DNA from: a virus
Virus record (IMG/VR): IMGVR_UViG_3300043409_001142
Coordinates: 1 to 22,316 of that record
Strand: one strand, 5' to 3'
DNA length: 22,316 bases
In this document: one piece after another, positions 4,338 through 19,334 of the stretch
How the letters are laid out: each line of letters begins with the position of its first letter
How positions within the stretch are numbered: position 1 is the first letter of the stretch
Position numbers and translations under genes: made by a program
Notes under the pieces: model-generated
Databases searched by the model: none
Seen by the model: the letters and a program-made list of their open reading frames with translations, nothing else
Told to the model about the DNA's origin: nothing

Positions 4338-4361
4338 TATCTGCTGCAACCCAGATAGGAT

Positions 4362-4434
4362 AGTCAGGTGGCGAAATTGGTTAAACGCTATGAGCGATTG
4401 TTCTACTGTACAGGTTCGAATCCTGTCCTGACTA
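4362..4434 (+). tRNA. tRNA with abnormal anticodon arm, isotype not assigned
   Basis: Acceptor AGTCAGG/CCTGACT pairs over 7 bp with discriminator A at 4434. The D arm (GCG, loop with GG, CGC) resembles bacterial tRNA-Leu. The T arm ACAGG-TTCGAAT-CCTGT is perfect. The 21 nt between D and T stems are 2 short of the usual length and do not form a clean anticodon stem. The best fold (TATGA/TTCTA, 4 of 5 pairs including a G-T) puts GAT at the anticodon position but has C33 and T37, both unusual. No CCA is encoded. It may be a diverged functional tRNA, a decaying gene or a tRNA mimic. Confidence 0.65.
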
Positions 4435-4485
4435 CTACCTGAAAAGGTACCATGAATAGTTCAAGTTTAGTTGTTAGGTAAGGTG

Positions 4486-4503
4486 GCCACTACGGCTAGT
4501 GGC
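4486..4503 (+). other. hairpin between the two tRNA genes
   Basis: GCCACTA-CGGC-TAGTGGC, a perfect 7-bp stem with a 4-nt loop, ends 4 nt before the tRNA-Leu 5' end. The rest of the 73-nt spacer (4435-4507) shows no gene. It may guide processing of the joint tRNA transcript. Confidence 0.5.
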
Positions 4504-4507
4504 AATT

Positions 4508-4590
4508 GCTTCGGTGTTGGAAAGGTAGACAAGACAGACTTAAAATCTGTTGCTCAGCTGAGCGTGCGGGTTCAAGTCCCGCCCGAAGTA
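4508..4590 (+). tRNA. tRNA-Leu (anticodon TAA)
   Basis: A complete class II tRNA. Acceptor GCTTCGG/CCGAAGT has G1-T72 as a wobble; the D arm is TTG...CAA. The anticodon arm ACAGA-CTTAAAA-TCTGT has T33 and anticodon TAA, reading TTA and TTG. The long variable arm GCTCA-GC-TGAGC is typical of Leu. The T arm is GCGGG-TTCAAGT-CCCGC and the discriminator is A, as needed for leucine charging. No CCA is encoded. TTA is the dominant Leu codon in the genes of this window, so the tRNA matches the phage's own demand. Confidence 0.95.
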
Positions 4591-14923: not shown

Positions 14924-15925
14924 ATGAAAGACATAAACTTAAATTCAATTGCATTTAATAGTCAGATTACTCGAGAAGATATCTTAAAGTATCTCACTCA
15001 GGAAGAAATCTATTCGTTTTATTTAGGTGAAGATATTAAAACTTTAGGCGTATATCATAGTCCTCTTCGTGAGGATAATATTCCATCGTTTGCTTTGTAT
15101 TTTCACAAAATGGAAAGAAATATTCTAATGTTTAAGGATTTTGCAACAGGAGACTGTGGAGACTTTGTGGTATTGGTGATGAAGATGTATAACTTAAATT
15201 ACCCTGAAGCACTGAGAAAGATCACATTTGATTTAGGTCTTTCCACGTTTAGCGTTGACGCTGTAAAGCAAACAGTAAATTACACTAGAATAATAGAGAA
15301 AGATAGAGTTGATTTAGGCATTAAGTCTAGACCTTGGGAAGTAAGAGATAAAAAGTTCTGGTCTTCCTTTGGTGTTAAAAGATCTACTCTTGAAAAGTTT
15401 AATGTGCATGCAATTAGTCATATATTCTATAATGACACTGCTGTTAAAACACATGAATATGCTTATGCATATGTAGAGGAAAAAGATAATCGAGTTAGTT
15501 ATAAGATTTATCAGCCTTTTGAACAGAAAATCAAAAAGTGGATTAATAATGCAGATTATTCTGTGCACCAAGGTTACATGCAATTAGTTGCAGAAGGTGA
15601 ATTATTAATTATTACTAAATCTCTAAAAGATGTAATGAGTATCCATGATTGTATGGAAATCTCAGCTGTAGGTTTGCAATCCGAGAGTGTTACAATGAAA
15701 GACTCTGTAATGGATGAGTATAAAACAAGGTTTAAAAAAGTAATCTGCCTGTTTGACAATGATGCAGCAGGCAAAAAGCTATCAATTAGCTTTACTGAAA
15801 AGTTTCAAATACCGCATTTCTTTGTGCCTGAGTTGCTAGGCGTCACAGATTTTAGTGACTTAGTAAAACACAGTGGCAAAGAAGAAGCAGTAAGAATCGT
15901 TAAAAACAAAATAGAAGAACTATGA
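14924..15925 (+). CDS. DnaG-like primase with TOPRIM domain
   Basis: A 333-residue protein. Residues 37-100 (GVYHSPLREDNIPSFALYF...FKDFATGDCGDFVVLVMKMYNLNYPEALRKI) follow the DnaG zinc-domain pattern 'xx-SPFREEKTPSF ... DFxxGxGGDxxxFV' but without the zinc-ligand cysteines. The TOPRIM fold is at 225-300: LLIITKSLKDVMSI in place of the usual 'EGxxD', ISAVGLQSE, and VICLFDNDAAGK (D278-N-D280). The Asp pair that binds Mg2+ is present; the first Glu is replaced by TKSLKD, as in many phage primases. It makes RNA primers for the family A polymerase. Its stop overlaps the vWA gene by ATGA. Its start directly follows the terminator at 14893-14923. Confidence 0.85.
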   Translation: MKDINLNSIAFNSQITREDILKYLTQEEIYSFYLGEDIKTLGVYHSPLREDNIPSFALYFHKMERNILMFKDFATGDCGDFVVLVMKMYNLNYPEALRKITFDLGLSTFSVDAVKQTVNYTRIIEKDRVDLGIKSRPWEVRDKKFWSSFGVKRSTLEKFNVHAISHIFYNDTAVKTHEYAYAYVEEKDNRVSYKIYQPFEQKIKKWINNADYSVHQGYMQLVAEGELLIITKSLKDVMSIHDCMEISAVGLQSESVTMKDSVMDEYKTRFKKVICLFDNDAAGKKLSISFTEKFQIPHFFVPELLGVTDFSDLVKHSGKEEAVRIVKNKIEEL

Positions 15926-17115: not shown

Positions 17116-17535
17116 ATGAGTAATGTACAATTGAATGTCGATGAGCTGAAAGGTTTCATGGGCCACATGGTTAGAAATAATCAATATATTCAATCACAAG
17201 GTAAAGTTCCTGTGACTGTGAATATTTCAGGTGATGCTGGTCTCGGCAAAACCTCTGCAATCTTGCAATTAGGTGAAGAATTAAATATCCCTGTTGTAAA
17301 ATTGAATTTATCTCAGCTAGAAGAGCTTGGTGACTTAATAGGTTTTCCTGTTAAAGAATTTCAAGTTAAAAACGCTGAAGGTAAAACTCTATGGATTACT
17401 GAGCAAGAAATTGACACAGCGACTTCTAAAGGATATCGAGTAACAGATAAGCGAATGACTCATGCTGCGCCTAAATGGATTCAAGGTAAGGGCGAAGGCG
17501 GGTTTTTGATTTTAGATGACTTTACTCGTGCGGAT
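17116..17535 (+). CDS. MoxR-type AAA+ ATPase, exon 1
   Basis: Codes residues 1-140 of a 389-residue ATPase: Walker A GDAGLGKT (39-46) and Walker B LILDDF (131-136), ending FTRAD. The frame runs straight into TAA, the first three bases of the intron, so an unspliced transcript gives a 140-residue fragment with no sensor 1. Joined to 18585, the sequence reads FTRAD-HRFMQAVMEICDRQEY, which matches the 'DEINRA ... LLEAMQER' region of MoxR proteins in length and character. MoxR ATPases work with vWA-domain partners; the upstream gene encodes one. Confidence 0.9.
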
Positions 17536-18584
17536 TAACAAAATATGCAGTCTATTAGTGTTAGTGTAGATAATTTAATTATCTTTATGATATGGAAAAA
17601 TTAAATACACAAACTCTTACGGCAGCATTAAAGTGTAAAGGAGTCTACAAAATTAAAATTAATGATAAAGAGTACATTGGTAGCTCTTGTAATATTGGCC
17701 AAAGATTAAAACACCACTTGTGGTCTCTTGAAAATTTAAAGCATCATAATAGAACAATGCAAAACTTATACAATAAATACGGTAAAGATGAAATTTACTT
17801 TGAAGTTGTAGAAGAATGCATTGATGATATATTAATAGAAAGAGAAGCTCATTATATTAATACACTTAATCCATATATAAATCATATACTAGATCCTCAA
17901 AAAATAATAAGAGATCAGGTGTATAAAAATAGGATAAGTAGTGGATTAAAAAATGCTTACGCAAATGGTCTAAAACCTCATAATCTTAAAACAGTACATA
18001 AATATTCACTTGATAAAGGTGAGTATTTAGAAAGTTTTGATTCTCTTACAGCTGCTGCTAAATCTATTAATGCTAAAAGTGTTAATAGTATAAAAGCAGT
18101 ATGTAATGGAAAACAAACTTCTGCTGGGAGTTATGTTTGGGCTTATAATAAAGTGGATCTAGTTTTTTCTAGAGATAAAAAATATAAGTTGGAACCAGTA
18201 TTACAATATACTAATGATAATCTTTTTATCAAAAAATGGGAGTCTATAACTCAAGCAACTAAAGAACTTAGTGTCTCTAATATTAATAGAGCAATATCTA
18301 AAAACTTAACTGCTGGTGGTTATAGATGGAAAAAAGCATAAAGCGGGTGGTCCGCAATAAATTCTGTGAATTCAGGGAAACTCCAGAGATGGACAATCCT
18401 GAGCCAAGCCTTATAGGGATATAAGGAAGGTGCAACGACTAGTATATGGAGCCTAGAACAGGCAGTAAAATACCAAGAGCGCAGAACACATAGAAATATG
18501 TGATGATATAGTCTGAACTGTAGATATAATCTAAAAAAAAACTACAGAATCATAGGATAAAGAGCCTATGAGTTAACAATAATG
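17536..18584 (+). mobile_element. group I intron (subgroup IA-like) with GIY-YIG endonuclease gene
   Basis: A 1049-nt intron. Guide: GTCCGCA (18350-18356) pairs with exon-1 TGCGGAT (17529-17535), 7 bp with the G-T wobble at the splice site (P1). GGTG (18346-18349) pairs with exon-2 CACC (18585-18588) as P10. Core: P4 TCAGG/CCTGA (18372-18376, 18398-18402), P6a CCTTATA/TATAAGG (18409-18415, 18420-18426), P7 GACTA/TAGTC (18437-18441, 18509-18513), P8 CACATA-GAAA-TATGTG (18487-18502), P9 CTGTAG/CTACAG (18518-18523, 18542-18547) and P9.x CATAGG/CCTATG (18551-18556, 18565-18570). G18584 is the terminal G. A small GCCT/AGGC hairpin between P7 and P3 suggests IA. Insertion is just after Walker B. 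Confidence 0.95.
17592..18341 (+). CDS. GIY-YIG homing endonuclease encoded in the intron
   Basis: A 249-residue protein. N-terminal GIY-YIG nuclease domain: GVYKI (17-21), EYIGSS (27-32), R38 in GQRLKHH and the catalytic Glu in EREAHYI (E85). The C-terminal part carries two IENR1/NUMOD1-like DNA-binding repeats, near residues 136-186 (VHKYSLDKGEYLESFDSLTA and following) and 206-249 (VLQYTNDNLFIKKWESITQA and following). It cleaves intronless alleles so that the intron is copied in; the target should be the exon junction 17535/18585. The gene lies between the 5' splice site and the guide sequence, so it is carried in the P1 loop. TTATCTTTA 5 nt before its ATG may be a promoter; no other signal is visible. 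Confidence 0.9.
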   Translation: MEKLNTQTLTAALKCKGVYKIKINDKEYIGSSCNIGQRLKHHLWSLENLKHHNRTMQNLYNKYGKDEIYFEVVEECIDDILIEREAHYINTLNPYINHILDPQKIIRDQVYKNRISSGLKNAYANGLKPHNLKTVHKYSLDKGEYLESFDSLTAAAKSINAKSVNSIKAVCNGKQTSAGSYVWAYNKVDLVFSRDKKYKLEPVLQYTNDNLFIKKWESITQATKELSVSNINRAISKNLTAGGYRWKKA

Positions 18585-19334
18585 CACCGCTTTATGCAAG
18601 CAGTAATGGAAATCTGTGACAGACAAGAATATGTATCATGGAAGTTGCCTAAGAACTGGCATGTAGTTTTGACTACTAATCCTGACAACGGTGACTATAA
18701 TGTAACTAGCTTAGACGTAGCGCAGCAGACTCGTTTTATTTCTGTTGAACTTAAGTTTGACGAAAGAGTATGGGCTCGTTGGGCAGAAAACGTTAAGATT
18801 GACGGTCGTTGTATTAACTTCTTGTTGATGCATCCTGAGTTAGTAACGCAAAAGGTTAATCCTCGTGCAGTAACTACTTTCTTTAATTCTATTAGTTCTA
18901 TTGAGAAGTTTAACGAAGAGTTGCCGTTGATTCAAATGATCGGCGAGGGTTCTGTTGGCGGTGACTTTAGTTCTATGTTTACTATGTTTATTAACAATAA
19001 GCTAGATAGAATTATTTCTCCTGAGGATATCTTGACCAAGGACGAAGCTTATGTAGTAGGTGCTTTGCGTTCTATGATCGGCGAAGACGATGAGTTCCGT
19101 GCGGATATCTCTAGTGTAGTATCAACTCGTTTGATTAACTATGCGCTACGTGAAGCGGAAACGAAGTCTGTATCTCAAGATGTAATCAATCGCTTGATTA
19201 AGCTGACTACTGATTGCACTTCGTTTACAGATGATTTGAGCTATTATATTGTCAAAGAGTTGACCAATGGGAACAAGCCTAAATTTAGTAAGATGCTACT
19301 TAATCCAAAAGTAGCTAAAATGGTAATTAAATAA
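18585..19334 (+). CDS. MoxR-type AAA+ ATPase, exon 2
   Basis: Codes residues 141-389. It begins HRFMQAVMEICDRQEY and contains NWHVVLTTNPDNGDYNV (sensor 1, TTNP at 170-173), DVAQQTRFISVEL with the likely arginine finger, and a helical C-terminal lid (VNPRAVTTFFNSISSIEKF, sensor 2 region). The apparent start ATG at 18582 lies in the intron's last bases and should not be used. Together with exon 1 this gives a complete AAA+ module, about the usual length for phage MoxR proteins. With the vWA protein upstream it probably forms a protein-remodelling pair; the target is unknown. Confidence 0.9.
   Translation, partial: HRFMQAVMEICDRQEYVSWKLPKNWHVVLTTNPDNGDYNVTSLDVAQQTRFISVELKFDERVWARWAENVKIDGRCINFLLMHPELVTQKVNPRAVTTFFNSISSIEKFNEELPLIQMIGEGSVGGDFSSMFTMFINNKLDRIISPEDILTKDEAYVVGALRSMIGEDDEFRADISSVVSTRLINYALREAETKSVSQDVINRLIKLTTDCTSFTDDLSYYIVKELTNGNKPKFSKMLLNPKVAKMVIK

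Follow-up and report, generated by a model that had tools for sequence, protein, structure and literature searches.

We report that a 22,316-nucleotide (nt) stretch of viral DNA, the 22.3-kb IMG/VR record IMGVR_UViG_3300043409_001142 (analysed over its full length and called the window here), carries at positions 4362-4434 a gene with the body of a transfer RNA (tRNA) and without a canonical anticodon arm. This element is likely to be a maintained, non-decoding tRNA-like RNA that belongs to a large class found in phage tRNA arrays, with ends that would be processed as in a tRNA and a middle that would be the working part. The class is built on a common scaffold, AGTCAGG-TG-GCGGAATNGGTAGACGC on the 5' side and CAGG-TTCGAAT-CCTG-CCTGACT-A on the 3' side, which is carried by relatives of the window phage and by many unrelated aquatic phages. 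Loci used for comparison are given as L numbers.

A tRNA-like gene without a canonical anticodon arm

The element and its surroundings comprise the following parts.

4357..4361, + strand: leader AGGAT, directly 5' of the mature end, common to the syntenic relatives L070, L018 and L020
4362..4434, + strand: whole non-decoding tRNA-like RNA gene (probable assignment), 73 nt up to the discriminator
4362..4368, + strand: acceptor stem, 5' strand AGTCAGG, 7/7 Watson-Crick pairs with 4427-4433
4371..4388, + strand: D arm, tRNA-Leu-like, with GCG at 4371-4373, a loop at 4374-4385 containing GG, and CGC at 4386-4388
4389..4409, + strand: variable core, 21 nt, TATGAGCGATTGTTCTACTGT, replacing anticodon arm and variable loop
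4392..4403, + strand: short hairpin GAGC-GATT-GTTC within the core, 4 base pairs (bp) and a 4-nt loop, from the minimum free energy (MFE) fold
4410..4426, + strand: T arm ACAGG-TTCGAAT-CCTGT, stem 4410-4414/4422-4426, 5/5 pairs
4427..4434, + strand: acceptor stem, 3' strand CCTGACT, and discriminator A73 (A4434)
4508..4590, + strand: ordinary tRNA-Leu(UAA) in the same tandem (ARAGORN; Rfam 54.8 bits)

An initial annotation, made from this single sequence, had described a perfect acceptor (7 bp) and T stem (5 bp) around an abnormal anticodon region. Both stems were indeed fully paired (7/7 and 5/5), and the middle is abnormal exactly as claimed, with 21 nt that form at best a 4-of-5 stem with C33 and T37. 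Class I tRNAs require 22-23 nt between the D and T stems, and the window core is one or two below this length. All five possible placements of a 5+7+5 anticodon arm in the core failed; none of them unites U33, a purine at position 37 and four pairs. When the element was tested as a canonical elongator tRNA, the acceptor, the T arm (TTCRA loop) and the D arm with its GG passed and the anticodon arm failed. Likewise, the Rfam tRNA model matched the element well over threshold (cmscan, 42.5 bits, E 4e-6) while leaving the anticodon arm unmodelled. The initial annotation had also proposed a check with ARAGORN, which returned no good normal tRNA at the locus, although it did offer a strained tRNA-His(ATG) at 4353-4435 on another acceptor. 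The unconstrained MFE fold of the element is a cloverleaf of -20.7 kcal/mol, in which GAGC-GATT-GTTC forms the third arm. At the 3' end, only C74 of the CCA is encoded, and an encoded C74 is present in nearly all relatives.

The scaffold recurs at the same locus in related phages

Judging from the sequence of its DNA polymerase, the window phage is crAss-like: the protein shares 38-40% identity with the polymerases of crAss-like phages, among them crAss001, and up to 83% identity over its full length with those of many IMG/VR contigs. Syntenic relatives were collected via this polymerase and thus independently of the RNA. The scaffold lies upstream of the polymerase in L017, L058, L070, L018, L059, L012, L004 and L007, as well as in the 91-kb relative of L009 (two copies in L216), with quite different middles. 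The acceptor of L018 is compensated (AGTCCAG/CTGGACT). In L027, L028, L029 and L047 the acceptor differs, and a long hairpin whose loop has 2 nt occupies the position of the anticodon loop. These four loci, together with L090 and L307, have a GGAAA within the D loop and a TTTCC close to the core's 3' end; the two segments, which recur across different families, could pair.

A large class of elements in phage tRNA arrays

Most loci of the class were gathered by the 3' sequence CAGGTTCGANTCCTGTCYTGACTA together with a filter for a 7-bp acceptor. Scanning IMG/VR for this 3' end gave at least 120 stretches, while 85,000 cellular genomes, scanned in the same way, yielded eight contigs, five of them binned with Bacteroidota. 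Among the latter contigs, L199 and L205 carry a terminase and L198 carries phage recombination genes, so that the element appears to belong to phages. When 2.01 Mb of relatives were scanned for the structure, 374 elements came up, as against zero in five Markov-1 shuffles. Core length within the class ranges from 16 to 140 nt with a median of 52 nt, and the window copy is among the shortest. It shows the features of the class, namely intact acceptor, D and T stems and a core without a canonical anticodon arm, and the family model R1 scores it at 67.2 bits (E 5e-14), the window being one of the 60 training sequences.

The missing anticodon arm is the rule in this class. A strict test for a canonical anticodon arm was passed by 7 of 201 distinct AGTCAGG-type elements, where shuffled middles give 1.9. 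The tRNA-like genes that lie on the same contigs but have other acceptors passed it in 184 of 249 cases. The contrast is not a search artefact because the anticodon arm was in no search pattern. Because an abnormal middle is general in the class, a sequencing error in the window middle was set aside as an unlikely explanation. The exchangeable and often large structured insert in the position of the anticodon arm could not be seen from one sequence.

The 62-kb phage G015 contains 11 elements with 11 different middles, interspersed on the same strand with 24 normal tRNAs that cover nearly every amino acid. Of the primer and packaging roles that the initial annotation had suggested, that of a packaging RNA is disfavoured because of these 11 different copies in one genome. 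That the element is a functional tRNA with a removable insert (intron) or an unusual decoding loop is scarcely credible. The window phage does have a group I intron elsewhere (18298-18533), and a few class members possess a normal Lys(UUU) or Ile(UAU) arm. However, the window core is shorter than normal, so that there is nothing to splice out, and a phage such as G015 is already supplied with normal tRNAs for nearly every amino acid.

Rfam yields tRNA only for the class elements, and a blastn search against sequenced phages matched only T-arm fragments. No description of such a class was found in the open-licence PubMed Central (PMC) literature, and an older or subscription account may exist; the class is apparently undescribed. 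Some neighbouring and atypical cases were recorded alongside. A GOLLD RNA (RF02032) at L218:15258-15748, with an embedded normal tRNA at 15332-15404, is separate from several AGTCAGG elements in the same array. At L121:6420-6518, a tRNA-Leu-like gene of class II combines a normal anticodon stem of 5 bp and the anticodon CAG with G, not U, at position 33. Two scaffold members (L090:6272-6365 and L124:11541-11632) present the 8-nt loop TAATGAAT on a 5-6 bp stem at the anticodon position.

The scaffold is under constraint

Across 60 sequences the three scaffold stems were 98.2% paired, compared to 29-39% when the partner strand was slid by one to three columns. Changes on both sides were seen in 10 of 15 scaffold pairs (acceptor 4/7, D 2/3, T 4/5). 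Acceptor pairing was partly imposed by the search filter, from which the D stem and the syntenic relatives are free. Covariation was also seen in the 3-bp D stem, which 163 of 181 relatives possess. No member of the class has its T arm replaced, though this arm was required by the search, and hairpins are inserted into the D loop in L152, L125, L141 and L195. U48 is retained in 143/181, as is the GG of the D loop, and because of this the elbow contacts of the L-shape probably persist, as judged from known tRNA structure. The initial annotation had proposed that the arms are under constraint and that related phages be compared for compensatory changes; such changes are present in the acceptor, D and T stems of relatives, that is, in all three stems of the scaffold. 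Constraint on the window scaffold is thus well supported by the sequence comparison.

These data bear on a decaying tRNA gene, in which the window copy would have lost its anticodon arm on the way out. Its 73 nt and unique middle would suit such a gene. However, the acceptor, D and T stems of the window are perfect, the stems of relatives covary, and in about 97% of the class the abnormality is confined to the middle. In addition, a short-core family (L099/L090/L307/L313) is conserved across phages, with a compensated acceptor in L313 (ACTCATG/CATGAGT). Decay was therefore rejected as very unlikely, in agreement with the initial annotation.

The Leu-like D arm raises a different use of the scaffold, that of a non-decoding aminoacyl acceptor. 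Leucyl-tRNA synthetase ignores the anticodon (established for E. coli) and could charge the RNA via the Leu-type D arm, A73 and U48, so that leucine would be fed or drained outside the ribosome. Most members indeed carry a D arm of the tRNA-Leu type (GCG-GAATNGGTAGA-CGC) together with A73, and the above proportion retains U48; near-canonical Leu(UAA) members of the class, L158 and L170, suggest tRNA-Leu ancestry. However, D arms of other types occur (TAGCTCAGTTGG in L189, TAGCTCAGAGG in L147), as do class families with other acceptors. Charging by this enzyme therefore cannot be general, and we regard it as quite unlikely to explain the element.

Many middles are conserved and compensated

Identical or similar middles were found in otherwise unlike surroundings. 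L168 and L156 share an identical 33-nt middle between flanks at the background level of 58-61%, L167 and L129 share 58 identical nt of middle, and all 36 nt of the middle are identical in L017 and L070, whose flanks are 35% and 70% alike. Three further pairs have similar middles (L172/L134 84%, L173/L216 89%, L177/L149 84%) with 300-nt flanks at the random level. A single middle is also seen on different, fully compensated acceptors (L012/L189 and L138/L153).

Stems within the middles are compensated as well. Around a constant GCTGGGTAA loop, TTGAA/TTCAA in one member of the pair L089/L128 corresponds to AGCAA/TTGCT in the other, and L173/L216 have a compensated stem inside the middle. The L087/L116/L162 family is consistent with an H-type pseudoknot, read by eye, in which GGTAT/ATACC changes to GATGT/ACATC. 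Strong covariation was seen in a sub-family with the core GCGUAAUGAGG-NN-UGG...CC-RARUCC...GGUUG (L244-L297, L120, L151, L166, L184, L185 and L020), which comprises 48 distinct members from 59 viral contigs, carried by numerous compensated acceptors. Its inner pair is GC in 16, CG in 11, AU in nine and UA in three sequences, being paired in 39 of 39 aligned sequences. Part of this core was set by the search pattern, of which the varying pair and GGUUG are free. Rfam offers no separate entry for this sub-family. A further T-arm-like hairpin, looking like a nested piece of another tRNA, was observed inside the middles at the 3' ends L114:3785-3808 and L088:1526-1549, and also in L147:13264-13356, L175:291-416 and L181:727-839.

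Under a processing-punctuation reading, long transcripts would be cut by RNase P and RNase Z at signals provided by the ends of the elements, the only parts of importance, with filler between them. The acceptor and T arm, which these enzymes recognise, are the most constant parts, and the elements lie within tRNA arrays. Filler does not agree with middles that are more conserved than their flanks, with compensated stems inside them and with one middle on different acceptors; furthermore, neighbouring canonical tRNAs already supply cuts. We consider punctuation most improbable.

Comparison with known tRNA-like RNAs

In kind, the element comes nearest to the phage T4 RNA rnaC (species 1 RNA), which carries an annotation as a small stable RNA within the T4 tRNA cluster. 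RNAC and RNAD, checked by Northern blot in a 2022 study, are late T4 RNAs with a function yet unknown (PMC9697503). The 3' end of rnaC (L301:1409-1547) consists of the perfect T arm CCGGG-TTCGAAT-CCCGG and, after it, a strand that resembles an acceptor; the 5' end CGATTCG pairs 5/7 with CGTTTCG, leaving two U-U mismatches. In the comparison set (L301 for T4, L302, L303 and L304), the acceptor helix covaries from A-U in T4 to G-C in Enterobacter phage myPSH1140, Yersinia phage TG1 has the full 7-bp helix (CGGTCCG/CGGACTG), and Citrobacter phage NM4.3 retains the ends while the middle is largely replaced. Like the window element, rnaC combines a tRNA-like acceptor and T arm with a replaced anticodon arm in a gene in or beside a tRNA cluster. 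Unlike the window element it shows no D arm, and in contrast to the AGTCAGG class, 651 of the 718 phage records that match it do so at 95% identity or more. Outside the T arm, its homology among the matches listed was confined to T4-like phages; R1 gave only 20.6 bits on rnaC, and no Rfam family exceeded the threshold. On sequence grounds the likeness is one of architecture and not of membership, because a D arm is missing from rnaC and its sequence is unrelated to that of the class beyond the T loop. T4 rnaD (species 2 RNA) is without a T arm.

Transfer-messenger RNA (RF00023) resembles the class in its tRNA-like acceptor and T arm and in the replacement of the anticodon arm by a domain able to hold pseudoknots. 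The class differs in retaining the D stem and in inserts down to about 20 nt, and RF00023 had no match in the window scan at E up to 1. The tRNA-like structures of plant RNA viruses are virus-coded mimics of the acceptor end at the 3' ends of genomic RNA, whereas the class consists of separate DNA-phage genes inside tRNA arrays. Phage tRNAs that evade nucleases (PMC10264068) are, like the class, changed in the anticodon region; they still decode, while the class is without any anticodon arm.

Cultured phages also contain tRNA-like genes without an anticodon loop. In the two 'tRNA-Undet' genes of Tenacibaculum phage pT24 (L207:1790-1868 and 2157-2235), the loop is replaced by a triloop hairpin GGGTA-TAT-TACCC inside a TTCG/CGAA stem. 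In Bacteroides phage BS-TP3 (PQ571276.1), an unannotated gene at 27702-27811 (L206:923-1032) lies between the terminase gene and a small open reading frame (ORF); at the anticodon position its GTATTC/GAATAC stem is extended and carries an insert. The acceptor sequences of both differ from that of the AGTCAGG class.

Other features of the window

A perfect 7-bp hairpin, GCCACTA-CGGC-TAGTGGC, lies at 4486-4503 between the tRNA-like gene and the tRNA-Leu and is possibly a processing or stability element. The group I intron (Rfam 84 bits) is accompanied by a GIY-YIG/NUMOD1 ORF (17592-18341), and the ORFs at 17116-17538 and 18582-19334 flanking this region resemble halves of one ATPase-like gene. 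The protein encoded at 5575-6438 matches Spore photoproduct lyase (PF20903, E 1e-21), a DNA-repair gene unusual for a crAss-like phage.

Proposed role of the tRNA-like RNAs

The acceptor and T arm are the parts of a tRNA recognised by RNase P and in 3' processing. Both ends of the element would be matured by host RNase P, 3' processing and CCA-adding enzymes as for a tRNA, and the product would be a stable, compact, L-shaped RNA incapable of decoding. With lower confidence than for maturation of the ends, we suggest that the middle acts in trans as a payload in the position of the anticodon arm and most likely binds a protein or RNA, of either host or phage, in the course of takeover or counter-defence. 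The window middle is reduced to a 4-bp hairpin; much of the activity may therefore reside in the scaffold, which could for instance mimic a tRNA at its elbow or acceptor end. A counter-defence role for the class is plausible, since there are several defences that cleave tRNAs and phage tRNAs that counter them (PMC10264068, PMC13096335).

The initial annotation had considered a tRNA mimic or a decoy for host tRNA nucleases. The mimic was borne out as to shape. As a decoy or sponge, the RNA would mimic acceptor, elbow and variable loop to titrate a host defence nuclease or tRNA enzyme, with the middle tracking the enemy. In favour, altered anticodon loops let phage tRNAs evade nucleases (PMC10264068), and the scaffold is conserved while the middle varies. 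To anticodon nucleases such a decoy would present no loop for cutting, which disfavours this version, and the conservation of middles in unrelated genomic contexts points to a specific function of the middle and not to mere escape. Overall, we judge a decoy unlikely.

Several points weigh against a maintained RNA with a working middle. Collection of most loci by CAGGTTCGANTCCTGTCYTGACTA and the 7-bp acceptor filter exaggerates the uniformity of the ends. The middles are weakly more stable than shuffles (mean z -0.7). When 41 middles were compared in antisense with their own genome and own tRNAs, the longest complement was no better than in shuffles, and ORF clustering on 128 loci revealed no partner gene family in more than 15 loci. 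The window middle, as an exact 17-mer, was absent from every other tRNA-like element collected; its two matches elsewhere are both in non-tRNA-like sequence. A motif GCGATWGTT, 5-7 nt 5' of the T stem, is common to the window, L309/L312 and the L090/L099/L307/L313 short-core families, which is suggestive only, because the pattern was picked after the resemblance had been noticed. The window's own middle, unusually short and unique, is the least certain part of the maintained-RNA reading.

The tRNA genes of phages are generally counted and interpreted as suppliers for codons or as spares that resist nucleases. We tentatively propose, at somewhat less than even confidence, that phages, mainly of Bacteroidota, use a general tRNA-scaffold platform on which unrelated payloads directed at host targets are swapped, up to 11 per genome, with T4 species 1 RNA as an independently evolved or very distant case. 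The payloads would be hairpins, pseudoknots and multi-helix domains on a constant body matured by host tRNA enzymes. The modular platform, taken as a whole, has a fair chance of being new. Some of the odd, undetermined or unannotated parts of these phage tRNA arrays would then be non-coding RNA genes with a tRNA body. Elements of the class are common (the IMG/VR stretches counted above), conserved and modular, BS-TP3 and pT24 provide cultured examples, and the likeness to T4 species 1 RNA makes the old question of its function testable through family comparison.
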